Positions 27,200 through 64,000 of a stretch of DNA of 64,000 nt are shown one piece after another (within the stretch, counting starts at the first letter, position 1; every line of letters starts with the position of its first letter). Source of the DNA: Aphrocallistes beatrix (Eukaryota > Porifera > Hexactinellida > Sceptrulophora > Aphrocallistidae). The position numbers and the translations under genes were made by a program. The DNA is taken from positions 2,232,001-2,296,000 of the forward strand of contig OY725497.1 in NCBI GenBank assembly GCA_963281255.1. The letters run 5' to 3'. The notes under the pieces are model-generated. The model saw only the letters and a program-made list of their open reading frames with translations, ran no database searches and was not told where the DNA came from.

Positions 27200-28252
27200 T
27201 CTCAGTTAGTGATTGCAAAGCTTCCAACCAATACACAATGCAGGTAAGAAAAACAAAGTGTGGCAGTGATAAGCAGGACATACGCTGAAGATATCTATAA
27301 CACGTAGGTGAAATTAAATGTGTTTTGAGTGACAGAATTTGTGTCAATATATTTTAGCGCCGCCTGTTTTTCGGTGTCAAACTGTTTTCAAGTTGGCAGT
27401 TAATAAATTGAAGTTTACAAATTTCTGGATAATTATGCAATTCGTCCTCCGGCACACTAGCCTGGATTTTATCGATAACTTGTTGGATGTGATCTGGTGC
27501 AGATGTAACATGAAAATCATCGGAATTGGAAGAGTTATTTTAGTTTCTATAGTGCTGAGAGGTGAAATATAAATTTCTTCTAATAGAATTTCGAGTTGAC
27601 GAGTGTCAATAAGATGTATTTGAGATATTGGAAAGATTTAACCTTTGCGATATGCTTTTACAGACAAATCAAATTCTACTGATTTGTAAACATCAATGGA
27701 AATTTTGCTAGTATCTAGCTTAGGGCGCATAAATAATAATGTACTTGGATTCGGATACCAGTATGACCATGTTTTTATAAATAGAGAGAAGTGGTAACTT
27801 ATCTTGCAGGTCTTGGAAAGTGTAGATCAGAAACTTCTTATTTTCCTCAGCATTTGTTATTAGGCTGAGACTCATTGCCTGAGAGAAGAGTTCATCATCT
27901 TTAGACTCGAGGGATAGACGAGAGCGTTTAGTTCCTGAGTGTGATGAATAGTAAGGTGAGTATCCTGGTAGAATAAATAGTACTGCACCTTCTTCTAGCT
28001 TTAAGCACCTTCGCGGAATTTCCCGATAGGTACCATCACCATTGGGCATTTTGTGTGTGTATTCAATGTCTCCCTCTTTGAAATGCTTGGAACAAACATA
28101 AACAGCTTTGAGTACATTAAGGCCATCTCTGTGGAGAGATCGAAGCCAAGCGTGTCTAAGTTCATCAGGTTTAAGAGGTACTCTGAATACAGATACTTGC
28201 CATCATTGTCATAATTGCTCTTACACCTTGGACCAGAACAGCGGTTGTGCAT
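27200..28252 (-). pseudogene. THAP-domain P-element-like transposase remnant
   Basis: On the minus strand the frame starts CSGPRCKSNYDNDGK and, after one frame change near 28195, continues VFRVPLKPDELRHAWLRSL ... VCSKHFKEGD: a C2CH THAP zinc finger. It then reads PNGDGTYREIPRRCLKLEEGAV, a serine-rich stretch and a segment DELFSQAMSLSLI..FLIYTFQDLQDKLP (to 27720). Further left, after more frame breaks, come a VPEDELHNYPEICKLQFINCQL block and a YRYLQ..CLSLPH block, the order seen in P-element/THAP9-type transposases. The catalytic part is absent. A domesticated THAP gene is unlikely given the breaks. Confidence 0.65.
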
Positions 28253-28611: not shown

Positions 28612-29648
28612 TGGCAAGTAACACTTCAAATATTTCTGAATCTACTGTCAGAAGAGGAGGTAAAGCAATCAGTGATGAAATCCGCTCAAGGTTGATCAAA
28701 GCTCATGAAACAGGACTTAGTTTATGGGCAAATATCCGAACTCTATGATGTTAAAAAGGATACTGTATATCGCATTTGCAGTTTTAGGCAGTATACAACC
28801 AAACCGCGAGGTGGTTCAAAGGGGAGAAAGATAGTAAACCAAGAAACATTAGGTTATCTTATAAATTTAATTGAATCCCGAGCGGATATAACGCTTCATG
28901 AAATGAAAGATGCACTAATACAAGAAAAGGGACTCACTGTATCAGTAGCAACGATTGCACGATGTCTCGAAGGTTCTCAGGCTAGACGCCAGCATGCATC
29001 ATGGTTGCAAACTCAATATGAATTGGGAGCACAATTTTGTTACATTGATGAGTGTGGATTCGGGTTATACACTGCTAGGTCACATGGACGTTCTGTCAGG
29101 GGATTACCAGCCAGAAGAATTGTTGCGAATCAAAGAACTCCGCATATTACCATGCTATGTGCTATTAGCCCTAATGCTGGACTAATCCATAAAATGATGA
29201 TAACTGGAGGAGCGAAGCAGGAGAATTTTGACCAATTTATCAATGAATTATTTCACTTAGAGTTCGGTCAAGCGGTTAATCCAATTGAAGGAGTAAATAA
29301 ATGCTACTTGATATTCGACAATGCACCCTGTCATCGAAGTATTGGAGCGAGGTTAGCCGAAAACATACCGGAAAACTTTGAATTGATCCGTTTACCACCT
29401 ACAGCTGTGAACTTAATCCGATCTAATTTTCGTTCAATATTCTCAAAGCATATTTGAAGCGTGCTATCAGTATACATGGACCAATTATTCCAAACCATAG
29501 TCAATCACTTGCTACAGCAAGAAGACAATTTCTTTTGCAACTGGCTCCTAGTGCACTCAGTCGAATTACTGCCACCTCCACCCTCAATTCGTTTTTTCAT
29601 GTCCTAACGATAACTGCTCCCAAAGCCATTAGGCTTGAAGACCTCTAA
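28612..29648 (+). pseudogene. IS630/Tc1-type DDE transposase, inactivated
   Basis: The ATG at 28612 opens a frame (MASNTSNISESTVRRGG..) that shifts near 28720 into a helix-turn-helix region (GQISELYDVKKDTVYRIC) and then the DDE_3 catalytic domain. YIDECGFGLYTARSHGR gives the first Asp-Glu motif, and YLIFDNAPCHRS the second catalytic Asp. The third acidic site, normally in an LNPIE-type motif after LPP, is lost: the frame shifts around 29410-29430 and the expected Glu codon is a stop. A KAYLKR tail follows at 29445. There also appears to be an in-frame deletion between the helix-turn-helix and catalytic parts (CLEGSQARRQ). It is non-functional; the family is certain. Confidence 0.87.
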
Positions 29649-39118: not shown

Positions 39119-42100
39119 TAATAATAATAATAATAATATACATTTATATAGCGCAGATTCCATATTAATATGTTCAAGTGCGCTGTACAATTCAATAAAA
39201 GTAGGTGTGTGTTATGTATGTATGTGTATGTATGCGTATGTATGTGTATGTATGCTTGTAAGGTATGTATATGCATTGAAATTAATTTAAGTGGATGTGT
39301 CGTGCGCGATACGGAAAAGATGAGTTTTCAAGAGTTTTTTGAAGAGAAGAAGTGAGGGGGCATTCCGAATGCTCGGAGGCAGAAGATTCCACTCAACAGG
39401 CGCAGCTAAAGTGAATGCACGATCACCCAGAGTTTTGGAAGATTTGATAGTAGGATGCTCAAGGAGGATGGCGTTGGATGATCGTAGAGTACGATTGGAT
39501 GACTTAACCTGTATGAGCTGGATGATATAGTCCGGAGCAAGAGAATGGATGGCTTTGTAAGTTATGAGGAGGATTTTAAAGAGGATACGATGTTTAACAG
39601 GCAGCCAGTGGAGGTTAATAAGAAGAGGAGATGACGAAAAGGTACGAGAGACATTGTAGATAAGTCTGGCTGCACTGTTCTGGACTCGCTGGAGTCGAGC
39701 TAAGAGGGATGAGGGGCAACCATACAAGAGACTGTTACAATAATCAAGACGAGATGTGATAAGAGAATTGACAAGAGTTTCACAGACTTCCCTAGAGAGA
39801 TACTTTCTAATACGCCGGATGTTATAGATGTAATAGAAGCAGGAGGAGGCAACTTTGCTGACCTGAGTAGACATTGAGAGGGTATTGTCGAGCCAAGTTC
39901 CAAGATTCCGTACTTCTTTGGAAGAAGAGATTCTCGACTCACCAACAGAGATGCTATCAGTTTGAACCTTAGATAGTTGTTGACGAGTCCCTATTATAAG
40001 GAACTCAGTCTTGGTGTCATTGATGAGCAACTTGTTGGTGAGGAGCCAGGAACGGATCGCGGAGATGCAAGATTGGATGGCGGAAAAAGCAGATTCTTCA
40101 GAAGAGATGGAACCGGGTTTAAAAGAAAGATAGACCTGAGTATCGTCGGCATAGCAGTGCATGTCGGGGAGGTGGGACCTAATGAGGTCGAATAGAGGAC
40201 TAGTATAGAGGCTAAAGAGAAGCGGACCAAGACAAGAACCCTGAGGAACTCCGTGTTGGACCGGGATATTGGAGGAATTAGAACCCTTAATCGAGACGAA
40301 TTGAGTCCTACCAGAGAGGTAAGATTCAAACCAAGACAGAGAAGAGCCGCAAATGCCGAAATGAGACTGGAGACGGTGGAGTAAGATGGTATGGTCGACG
40401 GTGTCGAAGGCTGAACTAAGATCAAGAAGAACCAGAAGAGATACGTGTTGGCGATTCATGCTGAGGAGGATGTCGTTTGTGACCTTCAGGAGTGCAGTCT
40501 CCGTACTGTGGTGTTTACGATAGGCAGACTGCGTCCCGGGGAAGAGATCATGTAATGTAAGATGATTCACGACCTGGATGGAAGCGGCCCTCTCAGTGAT
40601 CTTAGAAATGAAAGAAAGATTGCTAAGTGGACGATAGTTAGAGAAGATGGGATCAAGATTTGGTCTTTTAAGTTTGGGCAAGATGATGGCGCGCTTCCAG
40701 GGAGAAGGAAAATGACCAGTGGAGAGGGAACCATTTACGATTTTCGTAAGGATGGGCGCTAGGATGGGTAGAGATGATTTGACCAGGGATGCTGGGATAG
40801 GATCGAGGATGCAAGATTTATTAGGAGCAGAGGAAACAAGGGAAACAATTTCTTCCTCAGATAATTCTTTGAATTGGTGAAAAGTATGTTGGGATTCGCT
40901 GTTTGAATTATCTGAGAGGGTAACGGAAGACGACGATGCACTTGAATCAATGGTGGAACGGATGTTATCTACCTTAAGAACAAAGAAGTTGGCGAGTTCC
41001 TGAGAAAGAGCAGCCTTATCAGCATGAGGTGGTAGGACCTGTTGCTGGCGTAAGCCGAGAAGTGTGTTGGCCTTACGGAAGAGTGAGCGCTGGTCATGAC
41101 AGGACTGACTGATCCAATCAGAATAGAAACTGCGACGTTCCCTGTTCATCAGGTCAGTCACAAGATTCCTCTGATGCTTGAATTCAGCCAAATGGTCAGA
41201 GTCATTAGACTGGCGCCACTTCCGTTCAGCTTTCCTTCTCGCTCGCTTGGCCTGCTTGATGCTACTGGTGAACCAAGGGACACGGGGACGGGTGACTATG
41301 GTTTTGGATCGCGGAGGAGCATGCTGATCATAGATAGAGGATAGGGTGCTGTTATATGATACAATAAGTTCCTCAAGATGATCAGGTGGGCTAGCACAGA
41401 GATCAGAGGAAGCGAGATCAGCAAGAAAGATTGGGAGGTTGATGGATTTGGAACGATAGGTAACCTCCTGAGAGGAAAGAGAAGGTTTGGAAAGCGAGAG
41501 ACTACAAGAGATGGAGAAATGGTCAGAGAATAGATGGACAGGAGCGGGATCAGAGAGGATGATGTTGTCTGCAGAACGGGATATTATTAGATCGAGAATG
41601 TGACCCTTCTCATGAGTTGGCTGATTCACATGCTGGATCAAAGATAGAGAACGCAGGAGCTCGGAGAACTGTAAAGACTCAGACGGGATGTCAACATGGA
41701 TATTGAAGTCTCCAGTTATTATTAGGGGCTCCTTGCATAAGAGAATGGGCTCGAGGAGAGAAGAAAACTGATCAAGGAAGGTAGAAATAGAAATAGGATG
41801 ATTCCTTGAGTAGGGAGGCCGATATATTAGGATAATACGAAGGGAGATTTCAGAAGAAGAGATAGTCCAATCCGAGAACTCAAAAGATGATACTTCACCA
41901 GATGCATTGCACTTCAGCGTGAAGGAATCACGACAGAGAAGTGCAGTGCCTCCACCCTGACGATGTGCAGACCTAGCACGATCAAGGAGTTGGTAGCCGG
42001 ATGGAGTGCATTCAGCTCTCACTGCCGCATCCCTTGACGTGAACCAGGTCTCAGTAACGGCAACAACGTCAGGATGGTGGTCAGATACATAGTCAAGAAA

Positions 42101-42240
42101 ACGAGAGGATTTAGTCCTAAGATTCCTAGCATTGAGAAGATGGAAGGATATGAGATGAGGATGACCACGCGGGGAAGATTTAATCGGCTTGATAGTAATA
42201 AGATTGGATGGATTTCGAGCCGAAGAAAACGTAATATTGT
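39119..42240 (-). mobile_element. L2/CR1-like LINE, 5'-truncated with an open ORF2
   Basis: The element ends (minus-strand 3' end) in an (att)n tail at 39119-39140, preceded by a gcgctatataaatg-type 3' UTR close to that of L2/CR1 LINEs. The UTR also holds a tatg/tgta microsatellite (39205-39260). GC-rich sequence stops abruptly near 42240, just before the expected start of the endonuclease domain. No ORF1 is present, so the copy is 5'-truncated. Confidence 0.85.
39287..42235 (-). CDS. LINE ORF2: endonuclease plus reverse transcriptase
   Basis: The frame is open for about 980 codons from the element's 5' edge to the stop at 39287. It has an APE-type endonuclease at the N terminus (TETWF, then YRPPY, GDFNIHVD, and a THEKGHILDLIIS stretch with SDHF), then a reverse transcriptase with FDTVDHTILL, QGSCLGPLLFSLY and the catalytic box HCYADD. 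A C-terminal segment ends FKKLLKTHLFRIAH, typical of L2/CR1. Length fits L2 ORF2 minus its first residues. No in-frame ATG is seen before the endonuclease motifs; 5' truncation removed it, so the copy likely cannot move by itself. The coding strand is clearly richer in G and C than neighbouring DNA. Confidence 0.9.
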   Translation of the reverse strand: MTFSSARNPSNLITIKPIKSSPRGHPHLISFHLLNARNLRTKSSRFLDYVSDHHPDVVAVTETWFTSRDAAVRAECTPSGYQLLDRARSAHRQGGGTALLCRDSFTLKCNASGEVSSFEFSDWTISSSEISLRIILIYRPPYSRNHPISISTFLDQFSSLLEPILLCKEPLIITGDFNIHVDIPSESLQFSELLRSLSLIQHVNQPTHEKGHILDLIISRSADNIILSDPAPVHLFSDHFSISCSLSLSKPSLSSQEVTYRSKSINLPIFLADLASSDLCASPPDHLEELIVSYNSTLSSIYDQHAPPRSKTIVTRPRVPWFTSSIKQAKRARRKAERKWRQSNDSDHLAEFKHQRNLVTDLMNRERRSFYSDWISQSCHDQRSLFRKANTLLGLRQQQVLPPHADKAALSQELANFFVLKVDNIRSTIDSSASSSSVTLSDNSNSESQHTFHQFKELSEEEIVSLVSSAPNKSCILDPIPASLVKSSLPILAPILTKIVNGSLSTGHFPSPWKRAIILPKLKRPNLDPIFSNYRPLSNLSFISKITERAASIQVVNHLTLHDLFPGTQSAYRKHHSTETALLKVTNDILLSMNRQHVSLLVLLDLSSAFDTVDHTILLHRLQSHFGICGSSLSWFESYLSGRTQFVSIKGSNSSNIPVQHGVPQGSCLGPLLFSLYTSPLFDLIRSHLPDMHCYADDTQVYLSFKPGSISSEESAFSAIQSCISAIRSWLLTNKLLINDTKTEFLIIGTRQQLSKVQTDSISVGESRISSSKEVRNLGTWLDNTLSMSTQVSKVASSCFYYIYNIRRIRKYLSREVCETLVNSLITSRLDYCNSLLYGCPSSLLARLQRVQNSAARLIYNVSRTFSSSPLLINLHWLPVKHRILFKILLITYKAIHSLAPDYIIQLIQVKSSNRTLRSSNAILLEHPTIKSSKTLGDRAFTLAAPVEWNLLPPSIRNAPSLLLFKKLLKTHLFRIAHDTST

Positions 42241-42689
42241 ATGAGTAAAAATCTAATGTACGTACAGTATATATTTGATATCGTGATAATTTTATTCTGT
42301 TTTAGGTGCCCAAGTCGATAAATTAAATGCTAATTATATTGGATATACACTGCCTGAACAAAAGTATTCGTACACCCCATAATTCCCCATACAAATAGTT
42401 ATAATACTGATTTATTTAGCGAGTCAAGGTATTTATTATTTAACTTCAAATTCGAATTCTCCATATTCGAATTACTCACTTTTTAATCTTTCAACTTGTT
42501 TACACTCTCACAAGGTTAAAGCTTTTCAAACTGTTCCACCGCATACCACCAATGCCATAATATACAATGGTGATCACTCGCGACATGTGGCATAGGAAAG
42601 CAAATGCTTTAGTATACAATCTTTTGTTACTTCTCCTTTTTCCATTTTCAGTTGAATTGTGTTGAGTTCACATGTTTTGCAGCTCTAAA
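42241..42689. other. Non-coding DNA with a lone Tc1-type end
   Basis: TA at 42346 precedes CACTGCCTGAACAAAAGTAT, which resembles a Tc1/mariner terminal repeat. No inverse partner was found in the window. Confidence 0.4.
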
Positions 42690-50939: not shown

Positions 50940-52725
50940 GTTGCTGGATTACATTACCTATTGGGAAAGATGCTCAAATTTGGATAGATTAAAAATGAAA
51001 TACCTCCAAAAATCGATTAGCAGCCCTATGTTTTTAATATTACAAATAAAATATATGGTAATTGAGAATACATTGATAGAGTATCAACCCTAAAAGCGGG
51101 ATAAAAATGTTGAAAAAATAGCCAGAAGTCAGTATTCAAAATTTCGGATTTTAGTTAACTTTGATGAGGTAGTCCTGTTTCGTGCGTTTTTAACTCACCG
51201 TTTGATTTTAACTCACTAGTATTACTGAACCAGGGATATCGTGTGATTTTAACTCACTCCGTGTGATTTTAACTCACTAGTATTACTGGACCAAGGATAT
51301 CGTGTGATTTTAACTCACTCCGTGTGATTCTAACTCACTTGTATTACTGGAACAGGGATATCTTCTACTAGTACTGTGTGATTTTAACTCACTAAATAAG
51401 TATAGAGATATCTGATACTGTGTGATTTTAACTCGCTGAATTGTATAATATGACTGAAGATGTTAAATTGTTTCTAAATTGATTAGTATTTTTTATAATT
51501 TTCTCATGTCTCACAAAGTAATTCCTTTATTTAATTAAACCCCATTTTAATAAAGTCCAGTGCGGTTCAATGACAAATTATCCCTCTGATCCATACAAAC
51601 CAACTTGTGATGAATTACTTTCTTAAGGAATATGAACTCATAAACGATCCATTCTTGTGTATATATATGTATGGTATGTTAGAAGATTTATAATAATTCT
51701 TTAATTATAATGTATTTTTTGAAACCCCTTTCACTAATAAACATTATATAACAAAAAGTCAGATTTTATCATTTATTGAGTAAATATAAGCATTCATTGT
51801 AAAGATATATCAAAAAAGTAACACTATTGATAAATCAAGTAATATTATTAAGAATATGCAGACTGTACAAGTATACATATTTGACAATTCAATAAAAATG
51901 AAAATGAAAACAAAGTTGAAATCAAATACGTGATGGCCTCCTCCTCCCCTTAAGCCATCCCTTTCCTCTCCAGATGTTCGTGTACTAAGTGTCTGTTTGT
52001 GTTTGATAATGTATAGATGGAATGTACCATAGCTTGGACGAATTTTATTTGAACAGCGAGTTGGTATATTCCAGCTTTAGAGTAAAGTGTGTAATGTTGT
52101 GTGAGTTTACAGTCAATTCACCAGACAAGCCTCAACTCAGATGGTTCCCCAAGTGAGTAGATGTTTTAAAGCATTCAGGTCAAGGGTAACATCAAGCAAG
52201 GGTTGAGCCATGTAAGTGTGTACTGTCGACAGAGTCTATCTCTTATATACATTCATTAATAAACATAAAACTCCAGATGGTTACTAATTTGTAATTTGTG
52301 CGAATTTGTACCATAGTCGAGTAATTATAAATTCATCAGACAAGCAGACTAACTCCAGATGGTTACTCCAAGTGAAGTGTTAAAGCATTTTAGTCGAGGT
52401 ACCGTCGCGCAAATGTATTCCCTATTTCGCGCCGCGCGAGTTTGTACCATAGTCGAGTAATTATTGATTCATCAGACAAGCAGACAACTGATTAACTCAC
52501 GTGTACTTCATATCCTCATTCTTGTGTTTCGTCTCGGCTTAGACTCGTCAGTTGCGCTGCCTTTCTCGCAATACACTTGAGATGGTTGAGTGATGGAAAA
52601 GTGTTACTTTGGAAGTGATTCAGTCGGTAGAGCACGCGAAGAACAATCGGGTAAAAGGCAGGAGGCATTAAGGTGGTTTAAGTGGTAGATATGTGGTAGA
52701 TATGTGGTAGGTAGGTGGTAGGTGT

Positions 52726-55700
52726 CTAATCGATGTTGATAATTTGGTCGGATTTGTCATCTTTATAGAATGTCGGAGTTAGGCTGTTCATCATTGTAGT
52801 TACAGGTTCATAATGGTCGTGGTAATTGGTGATGTAAATGGCGCAATCTTCACTGTTGTCATTAGACGCACATATGCGTGACCAGCGTACTTCTGGAATT
52901 AGGCTGTCCGGGGTTCTGTATATCCGATTGGCAACATAGATGTCTGTCTTGAGTAGTGCGGAGGCAGCCATCAGTTCAACATCACTCCCCCATGTCCCTG
53001 CGACGTACATTGCACTTTGTCCAAGATATTCGGCGGGAGTGGTCGATAGAACCTGACTAAAATACCAACTGATCTCTTCTTTCCCCTCACCGAGCATATA
53101 ACGGCAGATTTCTCCCCGGAGCTTTGCGTGATCCTCCTCACTCCCCGAAATGACCTTAGACAGACATCTAAAGAGACAGTTGCCATCACCAGTAATAGAG
53201 GCGGACCTCCAAGGCTCAAAATTTCCCAACACTTGCCCCGCTAGGCTAGAGTGCTGTTCAGTTTGCTTTTGGAATTGGATACCTAACAAATCGCACTTTT
53301 CTTTCTGCCACTCGATCGTAATGGGGGATATTATGGGATTGTCGGACTTTAGGTGATGGACGAGTTGTGGAAATCCATTCACATTTAGGGAGAATAACTG
53401 ATTTTCGATGAACTCCAATGCCTAAATTAAATTAATTTTGAAAGCGTGTTATATCAATCAATGTACCTATGTAATACTCGGATGCAACTAACCACTCCAT
53501 ATAGAACTTTATCAACGTAGTCGCAGGTTCGATAAGGTTTTTTTTGCTTTGCGAACTCCACTAGCTTGTAATTAATCTCTCTCCTCTACCAACATAAGTA
53601 TAGAATGTTAAAATTACCACATTCAATTTCTGCTGAGTAGTTTTGTTACGCGTTATTCAAGTTCGTACTAACGAGAGTTACCGTATGGACCGTATGCATA
53701 TCTATACATATTTATCTTTGAAAGGTTGTGCTTACCAAAGATTCGGAGCTGGAATCTTTCAGTACTTGGTAAACGATCACATTTGGGACATAGAATCCCT
53801 TAACATTTCGTGCCTTATCCAATTCCTCGTGAAGTATGGAGAGGTATACTCCACGCTTTTTGTGATCTGTAAACGCTAACTAAAGAACATTTGTAGAGTT
53901 ATAAAATCAAGTCTATAATCTGACTAGAAAGAGAAGAAAACTGACTTTGAAATTGTCCAATTCATTGAGGACTGAGTCCTTTGATTATCGATTATCGCGG
54001 GGCTTTGTCACTTCACTTTCCTATTAAAATTAAATGTAAAGTAGCAAATAATTTGCATATAAAATTCATGTCATAAAGTATATGTACAAGTAATTTCTAC
54101 CTTTAATTTTTTGGTTGCAAAATCTGTAGGGAGATCAGTACACTTGCGTTTAGTCAGTTTGGCTTCTGACCGCGGAAAGTATTGTCTTGAGATGTGAAGT
54201 GGATATTTGCTGCATTTTGAATCACTGCCTTTCTTTAGAACCAATGCATGGCTATCTGTTACTTCAACTGCTGTCATAGGTCCGATATACTTCGCTTCTT
54301 TCTTGGTTCCAGGCATTCTCTTTGCTTTTCGCATGTTACGAACGAGTATCTGATCTCCTGGCTTTATATTCGAGCTGAACAGGATATTCAATAAATATCA
54401 ATCAAAGTTTGCCGCGACTAATAGAGTTTGACATAAAATTAAATGATCACCTGTTCTTCTTAACTTTTTTATCAAATATCAATTTTTGCAATTGCTGCTC
54501 CTTATGAATATTATCGGGAGCTTGTAATTGAGATTGTGCTCGAGTGTCTAGCAGAGGTTGTAGCCATGCATCTTGATTTTCAGGTTCGGGAGAGAATGCA
54601 TCTACTTCAGTTGTTTGATCTAACTCCTCCTCTTTATTTTCATCATCTAACACCAGGTTAGTGTGCGCCAGTAAATGTTTACTATTAGCTTCTCTCCCGA
54701 ACATCAGATAGAATGGTGAGTAGTTTGTTGACCTCTTCCAACAAGTGTTCGCAGCTAGCACAGCAGCTTGCAATTTGCTTGGCCATTCTGCTCCTGTTTG
54801 CTTAACCATTCTTTTTTTGTAGTTTGCTAATGAATGAGGAACTAAATAGAAACGAGATCTATTTTATCTATACTGGTAGTATGTTATACTTACGTTTTGA
54901 TTATTTTGTTATGAGCTTCAACAAGCCCATTGCTCTGTGGATGGTAGGCAGCAGTCCTATGGTCATCGACTGCTAATTTTCGATGAAATTCTTGAAATTC
55001 CTAATTCAGGAAGGACCTTGCTGACAAACTCAGGTCCTTGATCATGCTGGATAATCTGAGGCACTCCGAGAGTAAAATAGATGCTCTCCAGCTGAGACAA
55101 CACCTCACTACTCTTTTTCGTTCTCAAAGGGCGAACTGCACAGAATTTAGAGAGATAGCAAGCTGTGACCAGGAGGTGTTTGTAACCCTGAGAGTTCTCC
55201 TGCAAATCACAGACCAGATCAATACCGATGTGTTTCCAGGGCTGATCTGGGGGAGGAATTGGTTGCAGTTTCCTTTGAGGTTGAGGTGGTAAATTAGCAT
55301 CAGTCTGACAGTGATGACAAGTTTTTTTCTGAAGAGAGAAGATTGGTACGTCATAACACAGGATGTTTACCGCAAGTCAACACAGTATCAGTTTCTATGT
55401 GACAAGTCATTGAACATGACTTGAGTCAAAAGTTCAAACTCTATTCAAGTCATGTTCTATTACGTAATAGCTATGTATTCAATTTTGAATTCTACTTGGT
55501 GGGTCGTCTGAGAAAACAATAATTTATGTTCTCGCACAAACTACGTGATGCGAGTACAACAAATTTTGATCGTTTCGCAACTAAACAAACCCCTAATTCT
55601 CAATACATCAAGCAATCTAATTTAGCTACAGTTATCTCTCGTTAAAATACGAACACCTGGGGACCAATGAAATGCGTTCATATTATCCGAGATCTAATGG

Positions 55701-56880
55701 CGTGATTGGAATGTATATTCATTTGCGAGTGTGTGGGATACATAATTCGTTCGTCTTATCCAGAGTTACGAATTACAAGTCTACTACAAATATATGCGTA
55801 ATGCTCCATAAGTGAAACAAAGGTGTAATAAAAAACAAAGATGGAATAATTAACTCGATACTTACATAGTTTTTGATATCTTCATTCATTCCTGGCCAAA
55901 CATATTTCTGTCTGATAGCTTTGATGGTGGCGTTGATGCCAGGGTGTGCAGGACCGTCATGGTACAGTTTGAGTACCTCTTCAACTTGATCTGAACGCAC
56001 TACTTCGTATGAAGTTACTTTATTTCCACTGATGGTCACCTACTCAAAATTAATATTTTTAAATTAAAATTATTTCAAATGTCATACATACAAACTATAT
56101 CAGTATAACCGCACCTCTAGAAACCAGAGATCCACTCCCATGGAATCACGGAGTTTACAAAGATCTTACAGTAGCATGGTCTCAAACAATTACCCAATCT
56201 AAGAATTTTCTTATTTCAGCCCCAAATTAATCTCATATAAATCGCTAAGGGGGAGGGCGGCATTTATTAGCAATTTTGTGATTATTCAATGAAGCGGCAA
56301 ACAAGTTTCCAATCAATAAAGAGGGATGGGGTTGGTTAACCGATTTTCGGGCTCGGATATTTTGATTTCCTACAGGACGGTTAACTGTTTATTAACCGAT
56401 GTCAATATTAATTAGTAGAAATATGGGTTTTTCGACTAATATTTAACCTGATATTTAATTTTTAGTGGTCTCGGAATATACTTTTTAGTTAGAAAAATAG
56501 AAATAATATTGCAACATCGAAATTTTAGAAGTAATATTCATGAAACTCCATCGATAAACAATGAAATTAGTCTAAATATTTAGAAAATAAATCAGATCGG
56601 CTAACCGATCCAAGATTTCCATAACCGTTAACCGTGATTGACGGCGGATTGCCGGTTAACCGGTTAACTGAATCCAGCCTTGCAATAAGTTTGTTCCGAA
56701 TAAACTATCAATAAAAAAAACAACCTTGAATATCTTGTTATCCTCTCCAATCTGATATTGTGAAGCCTTTACCCGAAAGTTCTTCTTGGCGTGACATGTC
56801 TTCTTCGAATCGAGAACGTACTTTGGATACACATTGCGTGTAAGAAAGTCTGAGATTGCACTGTACTCGTCTGCGTTCAT
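52726..56880 (-). CDS. Ginger1 transposase: integrase-like DDE enzyme fused to OTU protease, multi-exon
   Basis: Exon 1 (56880-56725) encodes MNADEYSAISDFLTRNVYP, the N-terminal YP-type motif. Exon 2 (56039-55866) gives the first half of the HHCC zinc finger (YHDGPAHPGI), and exon 3 (55328-54894) CHHC, the DDE core (IGIDLVCDL first Asp, QIIQHDQGPEF second Asp, HPQSNGLVEAHNK with the Glu). The next exon (to 54451) continues the core (FYLMFGREAN). A 76-bp GT-AG intron (54450-54375) precedes the GPY/F-type domain (KYIGPMTAVEV). Small exons near 53990, 53800 and 53560 lead to the OTU exon (53421-52726), with DGNCLFR and HDHYEPV as Asp/Cys and His sites. Splice sites are my reading; a 16-bp GT...AG stretch at 55016-55001 interrupts the frame in exon 3. 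Confidence 0.82.
56321..56682. mobile_element. hAT-like MITE in the first intron of the Ginger1 gene
   Basis: The ends gagggatggggttggttaac and its rough inverse (gttaactgaatccagcctt) share GGTTAACCG words. It is non-coding. Flanking 8-mers share only caataa, so the target duplication is unconvincing. Confidence 0.5.
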
Positions 56881-57565
56881 CTTCGCGAATTACAATGCTG
56901 TTACTTGATACGTGCTGTGAAAATTCTGCTTTGAAAAATTCTGTTTTGGGTAGTTGATACATTAAAGAATCAACAATTTATATTATCAACAACTAAAAAT
57001 ACCATAATGGAGAATATCCCTGTTCCAGTAATACAAGTGAGTTAGAATCACACGAAGTGAGTTAAAATCACACGGTAGTAGAATATTCCTGGTTCAGTAA
57101 TACTAGTGAGTTAAAATCACACGGTGAGTTAAAAACGCACGAAACAGTCCTAAGGGTAAACGGAAATTTTGTCCCTGGAAATTTCGTCCCCAGAAATTTC
57201 GTCGTCCCTTGTTATTCGGCTTATTTTCATTCATGAGGATAAATAAGGTTTAATTAATAATGAAATAGGTATGTGAGGAAGTAGTCAAAACTTAAGTAGT
57301 AATTAAAAATCAAAATTGTATGTGATTCCCCTAAGATATGTTGTTATATCCCGATTCTCATAATCTCCAACAAGTAACAGTATACGCTCATCTCGTTCAA
57401 TCGACTTCTTACTACGTACTATTCTTTCACCAGACCCCACTTTATCAGTTTGGCCTCTTGTAGCGACTGTTCTCGTTGCTTTTGTTTTTTTTGTTGTTTT
57501 TTTGGCCCCCTAATTTCTACCCAGCCTATAGGTCCATAAACCCATGTTCCGGCCCTGGGTGATAT

Positions 57566-61622: not shown

Positions 61623-64000
61623 TGTTTCATCGTAACTTGACCCGCACCATGGATGTGCTACATCTATCGTAACTTGACCCGCATTAGAATGCATTATATC
61701 TATCGTAACTTGACCACATCATAACAATAGTAGAGATATGCCTATCGTAACTTGACCCGCATCGTAATGCTTCACATCTATCGTAACTTGTGGGCTAGAG
61801 TGATTACCTCGGACATTCGAGATTTACAATTATTAATTAAAACAGAATATCAGGTTTGTGCCCCAACCTTTGATTTCTAAATAGACATGTATACAAAATT
61901 TCACACCAATTTTAAATGTATTATTTCTGTTTATAATTTCTGTTAATAATAATATAGTATGCATATACATATAAACATAATAATTTAGTGTTGAGAAACA
62001 CTGGAAAGATAGAAGCTTGAATAGTGCTTGGACAGTTGTTCTAGGTTTCGACCCTCCATAGGTCATCATCAGTGACCCGGCCTAGGGTAAGACCCAGAAC
62101 TGGTCTGAGCCCCTGTTGAAAAACAGGTGTGTTTTCCCCATGACACCCCAACAGTTCCCACGACAGTTCATTCAGTGATTCGTTGAGTTGTTGCTAACAT
62201 CTGGTACCTTAAATGATTCGTATTCCGAATTCATTAGGCGAATAACTGGCTCGTAATGATTGTGATTAATGTTGGATATGTAGATGGAGATAGCATTTGG
62301 ATCTCTGGCATGATCAGAATACCGATGCCAGATTTTTCGCGTCCAGTGTTTGGTAACATCATACAGTTCTGTAGATATAAATACGTCCGAGTCCAACATG
62401 CAAGAAATGGCCATCACCTCGACATCACTAGCCCATACATTATTTTCTGTCATAGCTGACGTTTTTAAGTATGTCACAGGAGATCTATCCTTACTGAAAG
62501 TCTTAAGGTACCGGTTGATTTCCCATCCGTTACCATGTATCTGCACAATTCTGCTCTGAGCTTGGCATGGTGGTTTTCGGTGCCAGATACCATCTTAGAT
62601 ATTCACCTAAAGAAACAATTCCCATCCATTCCAATCTTTTCAGTCTGCCACGGAATGAACTGAGACAGAAGAGAACCGGCTAGTGCTGGTTGTTGTTCGA
62701 GGCTCTCAACATAAGCAATCCCAAGTAGTTGACACTTCTCCTTTTGCCATTGCTCAGTAATAGGATGATAGCACGGTCCTAATTTGGGGCAAGCTGGCAA
62801 TCTGAATGGCATATTTTCTGTCGCGGAGACAAATCTCTTGTTAATCAACTCCGATTCCAGGTGGTCACAAATCTGAAAGAATAAAAGACGAAAATATACT
62901 TAGAATTCCATACCAGACTACGATCGTGATATAATTAGTATGTTTACTCACAACTGGGAATAGAACCTTGTGTGCGTACTCGATACAATGTTGGCTCTGC
63001 ATGGTGGGGTTATAACATTTGTTAGCAAAAGCTTCTTCTGTCCACTGAAGAAGCATGTTCATAACCTCTTCTCTCTAAAACACAATTGAACTGATTATAT
63101 TATATTCACAGAAACATTTTATACATTCTTAGATAATAGCAACAAACCATTTGGAATGGAGTAACATTTTTGAGAACAGAGAATAGGACAGTAATCGTTG
63201 GACACATCTGTCTGTTCGGTGTGTTATGAAGTAATTCATGCAGTTGCGAAATAAACGCCTCGTTTATTAATTTCTTAATTACATCATCCTATAGTTAAAG
63301 AAAATAATTAGATCAAGTCCTGGGGTTCACTCACAAAATTATTATATAAGTTGTACACCTTAAATTGACTTACTTTGAGCAGATTTAATTCTTCCACTAT
63401 TGATTCTCGTGAAATACCGAATAAATACTGTTCGTCGTTCACATTCGTCACCTAACAAGATTGTTAGTTAAATCATACAACGATCTAATTAATTGAATCG
63501 AATTTTGCATCAATCTATAGGACTATACCTTGGGTCTCTTGGAAGCAGAATTAGATGAAACGTGTGTATTTTTTCTCCTCAAAGGTTTTCCTCGAGATGG
63601 AAAAAGTGTATTTGTTGGTGCATCTACTATAGTAGACTGCATATTGAGTGGCTACAAATATGGGTTAATATTATACTTTATAAGGTAAGGTATGCTTAAT
63701 TGATCAAGTGTCATTCACCTGGAATTCGATTTCGCGCTGACGATACTTTTTAGACAAGTGAAGAGGATAGGTAACAATACGTTGTGTTTCATCTTTGATG
63801 GCGACTACATGACTTTTTGTTACCTTTGTTGCCTCGAAAGGACCAGTATATTTAGGTTGTTTCGATGTATTTGGAAGCTTTTTATCTTTCCTGATGTTTC
63901 GCACCAAAAACAGCTCCCCCTCTTGGATATTAGAACTAAAATTCCAAAATTGGTTTCATATTATTAATTATCAACAATGCTAGTTATAAGGAGATTATAT
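61623..64000 (-). mobile_element. Ginger1 element, third copy, running off the right edge
   Basis: The left end TGTTTCATCGTAACTTGACC matches the TGTTTC terminus of copy 1. It is followed by about five copies of tatcgtaacttgacccgcat (61629-61800), a different subterminal motif. On the minus strand are OTU exons (62848 down to about 62172), a 79-bp intron (62951-62873), and upstream exons to a GPY/F domain at 63907-63704 (QPKYTGPFEATKV). The other end lies beyond the window. Confidence 0.85.
62172..63907 (-). pseudogene. Ginger1 transposase C-terminal half with decayed OTU domain
   Basis: From the right: the GPY/F domain (VRNIRKDKKLPN, YTGPFEATKV), small exons with FANKCYNPTMQSQHCIEYAHKVLFPV, a GT-AG intron, then the OTU exon with HPITEQWQKEKCQLLGI and MDGNCFFR. 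The OTU frame has a stop right after DGNCFFR and a frame change around 62550, then ends with NHNHYEPVIRLMNS, the His motif. Amino-acid similarity to copy 1 is only moderate, so the two belong to different Ginger1 families. Confidence 0.8.

Follow-up and report, generated by a model that had tools for sequence, protein, structure and literature searches.

The window, a 64-kb stretch of DNA, contains a 5971-bp element that the initial annotation had described as a complete Ginger1 transposon with an intron-bearing integrase-OTU fusion. Its gene lies on the minus strand, where ten exons (nine introns) were predicted from splice signals (GT-AG), from open frames and by comparing copies, and genome-wide searches were run against the host assembly of 100.5 Mb in 28 contigs. 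The features, with the evidence on which each rests, are as follows.

51172..51175, no strand: target site duplication GTCC, left (single GTCC at unoccupied paralogous sites)
51176..57146, gene on minus strand: Ginger1 element, 5971 bp (ends, duplication, genome matches)
51176..51239, plus strand: outer terminal inverted repeat, left, starting TGTTTCGTGCG (inverted-repeat pair)
51180..51441, plus strand: subterminal repeats, left, unit GTGTGATTTTAACTCACT (three direct-repeat families, D1-D3)
52726..53421, minus strand: exon 10, OTU cysteine protease, GDGNC ... HYEPV (Pfam PF02338, E 4.5e-11)
53493..53582, minus strand: predicted exon 9 (inferred gene structure)
53736..53875, minus strand: predicted exon 8 (inferred gene structure)
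53946..54020, minus strand: predicted exon 7, in-frame TAA (comparison with sister copies)
54101..54374, minus strand: predicted exon 6, GPY/F region, reading GPM (comparison with other copies)
54451..54841, minus strand: predicted exon 5, run of 7 A's (comparison with sister copies)
54894..55000, minus strand: predicted exon 4, catalytic E (comparison with sister copies)
55001..55016, minus strand: intron remnant between D and E, 16 nt, frame-shifting (62-67 nt in 4 sister copies)
55017..55328, minus strand: predicted exon 3, CxxC and first two catalytic D (Pfam PF00665 below cut-off; 24 loci compared)
55866..56039, minus strand: predicted exon 2, histidine half of the H2C2 finger (Pfam PF17921)
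56321..56682, no strand: secondary insertion within intron 1 (alignment break common to several copies)
56725..56880, minus strand: predicted exon 1, N-terminal part (splice signals, open frame)
57036..57143, minus strand: subterminal repeats, right end, 4 units (direct-repeat family D4)
57083..57146, minus strand: outer terminal inverted repeat, right (inverted-repeat pair)
57147..57150, no strand: target site duplication GTCC, right (single GTCC at unoccupied paralogous sites)

The inverted arms (51170-51239 and 57083-57152) are 94% complementary, and a 23-nt terminus pattern, allowing up to 3 mismatches, matched 50 ends genome-wide and none with the reversed control, so that a real unit with both ends is confirmed. 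The terminal inverted repeats lie within the ~40-270 bp of Ginger1, and the subterminal arrays are built of units of ~18-20 bp that we regard as candidate transposase-binding sites. The initial annotation had named copies ending elsewhere as evidence against this unit, a point followed in part: most copies were retrieved via the 23-nt terminus itself, and the terminus-free check is a DNA search with the element (at least 187 matches, 40 of 745 candidates scored), in which many matches stop at position 1 or 5971 and truncated matches also occur. Several copies lack the ~360 bp inserted in intron 1; this piece, whose ends are rich in GTTAACCG, resembles a small non-autonomous transposon.

The element sits in a repeat that has paralogs elsewhere in the genome. 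Joined over one GTCC, its flanks have full-length alignments (155 positions) at C15:2932619 (99%), C1:8932016 (97%) and C3:5068639 (89%, including an insertion), and two sites on C11 match along 139 positions (98 and 97%); all five unoccupied places hold one GTCC, within GTAGTCCTAA. The insertion therefore amounts to 5971 bp plus a 4-bp duplication, in agreement with the GTCC annotated on both sides. Tabulating the 4-bp flanks of copies that share these ends, as the initial annotation had suggested, extended the duplication to 8 of the 11 copies with two ends, each of the 8 having flanks of the form GNNC, and left 3 (L013, L014 and L015) with unequal flanks, the unequal pairs being GACC/GTAC, GCAC/GCGC and GCTC/ACTC, presumably through mutation or recombination; the 4-bp target site duplication of Ginger1 is thus seen in these copies and at the unoccupied sites. 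One could formally assign the outer G and C to the element and shorten the duplication to 2 bp, but both bases are present in the unoccupied sites themselves, which makes such an assignment less likely.

Pfam profiles matched all three annotated parts of the protein within the one unit, namely the zinc finger (Integrase_H2C2, PF17921, E 9.3e-15), the integrase core (rve, PF00665, E 1.5e-6, under Pfam's cut-off) and the OTU protease with its Cys/His motifs (E as listed above). If exon 3 is spliced to exon 4, the D-E spacing is 35 residues, giving a Gypsy-type integrase with an H2C2 finger and a DDE core of the D-35-E form. Upstream of the finger, where the YPYY motif of Ginger1 is expected, exon 1 contains VYPKY...NFRVKASQYQI. 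The GPY/F domain that had been claimed was found as a homologous region in which the motif itself reads GPM; the same region reads GPY in L053 and L140, GPC in L051, GPQ in L056 and GLQ in L055. The motif around the second catalytic D was recovered in 27 of 28 related loci (L122 gave no row), and because a GT follows it at the same point in 26 of these 27, and three bases later in L127, the predicted intron inside the catalytic core is common to these families, with the acceptor side read in eight loci.

Domains of this kind, as well as TGT...ACA ends, also occur in Gypsy elements (Bao 2010, PMC2836005, in the accessible part of that paper), and the unit could in principle be a remnant of a Gypsy LTR retrotransposon, with the integrase end of pol between flanking repeats. 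We consider this highly improbable, since the termini are inverted, no reverse transcriptase (RT) is seen in the unit, and the OTU lies downstream of the integrase, an order that recurs at 66 of the 100 best integrase loci. An RT in the same unit, which the initial annotation had listed as evidence against Ginger1, was absent from six Pfam-scanned pieces of the element, from its 17 frames with at least 60 aa, which we inspected by eye, and from the genome RT matches listed (150 of 713 candidates scored). The LTR retrotransposon was accordingly rejected, with neither an RT in the unit nor direct LTRs. Among the RT matches listed, the sole one in the window is a frame at 39287-42301, outside the element. 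This frame is LINE-like (1004 aa), and other frames of the window encode a DDE_3 transposase (28696-29454) and a THAP-domain protein (27723-28202), the latter pointing to an animal as host. RT matches were also noted near other Ginger1 loci, at C3:4117379 (between the integrase and OTU match), C4:3998833 and C17:2592958; their length and profile range are the same as those of the LINE-like window frame, and the simplest reading is therefore that they are nested LINEs.

The element is a Ginger1 of the OTU type, and the class given by the initial annotation is correct: it shares the H2C2 finger, integrase core, C-terminal OTU, inverted termini and 4-bp duplication with the Hydra OTU-type elements Ginger1-1, -2, -3 and -11_HM (PMC2836005). 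What sets it apart is the target palindrome TAGNNCTA, the nine predicted introns and the TGTTT ends. Set against Ginger1 as described in the accessible text of the same paper, the window element has nine predicted introns versus 0-4 in its Ginger1 table, family termini that begin TGTTT and so depart from TGTNR, and GPM where published Ginger1 has GPY/F. Ginger2/TDD elements resemble it in their integrase-like transposase, 4- or 5-bp duplications and TGT ends, but differ in an AT-rich RTATAY target, which is not the target of the window family, and in lacking GPY/F and YPYY, with no C-terminal protease described there (PMC2836005, same portion). GIN1 and GIN2 (PMC2836005) and Imagin (PMC12863088) are likewise multi-exon genes with a Ginger1-derived integrase, as predicted here, but they are host genes, and Imagin is single-copy and without inverted repeats according to the accessible part of PMC12863088.

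GNNC adjoins 43 of the 50 ends of the window family, against a background of 3.1% in the window, with 7 ends having another flank. Counting outward, position 1 is G at 47 ends, position 4 is C at 45, position 5 is T at 32 and position 6 is A at 30. With one end taken per element and identical flanks removed, GNNC remained in 30 of 37 insertions (binomial P 7e-39 versus 3.1%). Ginger1 has been described as having a highly specific CCGG/CCGT target, and in Hydra 112 elements had duplications of CCGG (75%) or CCGT/ACGG (24%) (Bao, Kapitonov and Jurka 2010, PMC2836005, accessible text). The window family differs in using GNNC within TAGNNCTA, and CCGG, CCGT or ACGG stood next to 0 of its 50 ends; the initial doubt as to whether GTCC fits CCGG/CCGT was thus justified, GTCC falling in the GNNC consensus. 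We treat the Hydra-type duplication as a trait of the Hydra lineages that is not decisive for membership in Ginger1, because protein domains, type of termini and duplication length agree. The window copy does occupy a repeat with unoccupied paralogs, and insertion into one particular repeat, as opposed to sequence-directed targeting, could generate a GNNC signal; we give this very little credence, as flanks beyond the core vary among insertions and 13 central dinucleotides occur in the 37 insertions.

The same target was found outside the window family. Three further integrase-bearing families (L051/L052, L053/L054 and L055/L056), 60-69% identical in their integrase exon 3 (L051, L053, L055), have termini that start TGTTG, fitting TGTNR, and duplications that, read by eye on both sides, are GAGC (L051), GGAC (L052), GTGC (L053), GGCC (L055) and GTCC (L056), all GNNC. 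Their degenerate terminus pattern matched 509 ends in the genome (control 0), and from 100 of these we chose 17 pairs and 6 single ends, 15 of the 17 pairs being 0.5-1.7 kb long and hence assigned by termini alone. Identical flanks were present in 14 of the 17 pairs (13 of 16 unique), all GNNC, with a preceding A in all 14, a following T in 13 and the full TAGNNCTA in 8 of the 13 unique pairs; three pairs were unequal (GACT/GGCC, GGCC/GTAC and GCTC/GTAC), and single ends gave GNNC in 4 of 5 usable cases (the sixth was without a flank). A two-ended element of 2,986 bp (L142) has GGTC, again GNNC, on both sides, and no OTU frame of 100+ aa was found in it. The palindrome TAGNNCTA is common to the window family, the three other integrase-bearing families and the short elements with their termini, and is used in most cases.

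Ginger1-like loci are abundant in these 100 Mb: integrase matches number at least 150, and the 509 ends, which are of a single terminus type, seem in many cases to belong to short elements. Two 6.3-kb copies of a Ginger1-like integrase locus (L140 and L141) are 99.9% identical and showed no OTU frame; on the same strand they have a frame of 429 aa that matches Zn_ribbon_3CxxC weakly, under the cut-off, and is possibly another C-terminal partner. Within the window, TGTTTCATCG at 61623 is preceded by GGCC, a GNNC, and followed at ~62178-62842 by a minus-strand OTU that is interrupted by an in-frame stop and by a change of reading frame; the stretch 61623-64000, in which we found no right end, is a probable second, diverged Ginger1.

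Genome searches gave at least 152 OTU matches (150 of 528 candidates scored) and at least 150 integrase matches (150 of 625 scored). Pairing the 100 best integrase matches with 134 OTU matches placed an OTU downstream, on the same strand and within 8 kb (median 2.2 kb), at the 66 loci mentioned above and upstream at none, with 34 lacking a downstream OTU in the list used and 5 having an opposite-strand OTU nearby. The protease occupies the C-terminal position in which Ginger1 carries OTU or Ulp1. Ulp1 was rejected as the protease at other loci, as none of the 9 Peptidase_C48 matches genome-wide lay closer than 10 kb to any of the integrase matches listed (at least 150). The solved sequences nearest to the OTU profile were OTUD1 (4bop, 5.8e-10), OTUD5 (3tmo, 2.5e-7) and OTUD3 (4bou, 7.6e-7), deubiquitinases that differ from the transposon OTU in being cellular enzymes without an integrase. 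A single-sequence fold of the OTU had a mean pLDDT of 37.8 and was set aside.

We compared the window OTU with 28 loci, selected mainly because their frames were open. L073 and L021 were dropped for stops and L028 for its missing front part, which left 26 copies, some nearly identical. Cys82 and His203 are kept in 26 of 26 copies, a count that the choice of open frames favours. The dN/dS ratios for 20 OTU pairs were 0.09-0.13 in 6 between-family pairs and 0.38-1.17 in 7 within-family pairs, with 5 between-family pairs saturated and 2 having a dS of zero; for integrase exon 3 (24 of 26 loci, L122 and L014 left out for stops), they were 0.08-0.12 among seven loci of two families, with 13 saturated, and 0.13-0.62 among four copies of the window family, all of these being rough values from non-independent pairs (about three family comparisons for OTU, two for the integrase) with dS near saturation. 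Between families, constraint on the protease is thus roughly as strict as on integrase exon 3. The 34 integrase matches without an OTU in the list used, together with the within-family ratios, would suit a protease that is a tolerated passenger, unneeded for transposition, but decaying copies are expected to look near-neutral within a family whatever the part, and a between-family dN/dS of ~0.1 as in the integrase exon and the Cys and His in all 26 copies argue against it, so that we consider a passenger role unlikely. For the same reasons, namely a between-family ratio like that of the integrase and the retained Cys/His, the OTU protease probably helps propagation.

The window copy itself is ordinary. 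Its OTU exon is an open frame, but comparison with sister copies shows damage at three places in the coding region: the intron between D and E has shrunk to a frame-shifting remnant, the A-run of exon 5 has 7 A's versus 3 in 9 of 9 sister copies compared, and exon 7, in addition to its stop, lacks 18 bp present in 8 of the 10 sister copies compared (L026 keeps 10, L019 none). The initial annotation's "complete" and "readable exon structure" therefore overstate its condition, and as a good reference copy it was rejected, the integrase frame being interrupted within the catalytic core and twice downstream. Judged from its sequence, this copy is passive now, with intact ends and a broken predicted protein. 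Six relatives (L009, L010, L011, L013, L016 and L020) are non-autonomous derivatives, nearly identical where compared, and a piece within them resembles a Tc1-type transposase by eye. Five derivatives of 4.6-4.9 kb that are without most of 52780-55240 are 98.5-99.4% identical to each other (the sixth, L020, lies outside the alignment) and have identical flanks in 4 of 5 cases; this points to fairly recent movement, which would have been driven in trans.

Taken together, we put at roughly 0.85 the probability that this is a cut-and-paste transposon of the Ginger1 group with the palindromic target TAGNNCTA and an OTU that probably aids its propagation. To judge by its class, the integrase would recognise both the inverted termini and the subterminal repeats and cut the two strands of TAGNNCTA with a 4-bp stagger; excision is assumed on the same grounds. 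Repair would then leave GNNC on both sides, the duplication and target being observed. The OTU, as the C-terminal domain of the predicted multi-exon protein that also holds the integrase, would probably remove ubiquitin from transposase, chromatin or repair proteins at insertion and in this way help propagation, the constraint on its sequence being the observed part. The role of the OTU in Ginger1 is a stated guess in Bao 2010, from which the repair idea comes (PMC2836005, accessible part), and our literature searches returned no recognisable paper testing it; nor does a GNNC target for Ginger1 appear in the accessible parts of PMC2836005, PMC10045372, PMC12863088, PMC12440569 and PMC5753468, a search with Repbase outside its range.

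Two results are worth keeping from a copy that is itself dead: the palindrome TAGNNCTA, and a constraint on the OTU that is similar to that on the integrase. The target differs from that of Hydra, leaves its central positions free, reaches 8 bp in length and is common to families with ~60% integrase identity; target-setting integrase residues could therefore be sought by comparison with Hydra, and the constraint on the OTU argues that the protease matters for spread. It is conceivable, at slightly less than even odds, that one large Ginger1 radiation in this host has fixed TAGNNCTA, a target unlike the CCGG of Hydra, and needs the OTU deubiquitinase fused to it in order to transpose; if so, target choice and a ubiquitin step would be mappable onto one transposase by lineage comparison.
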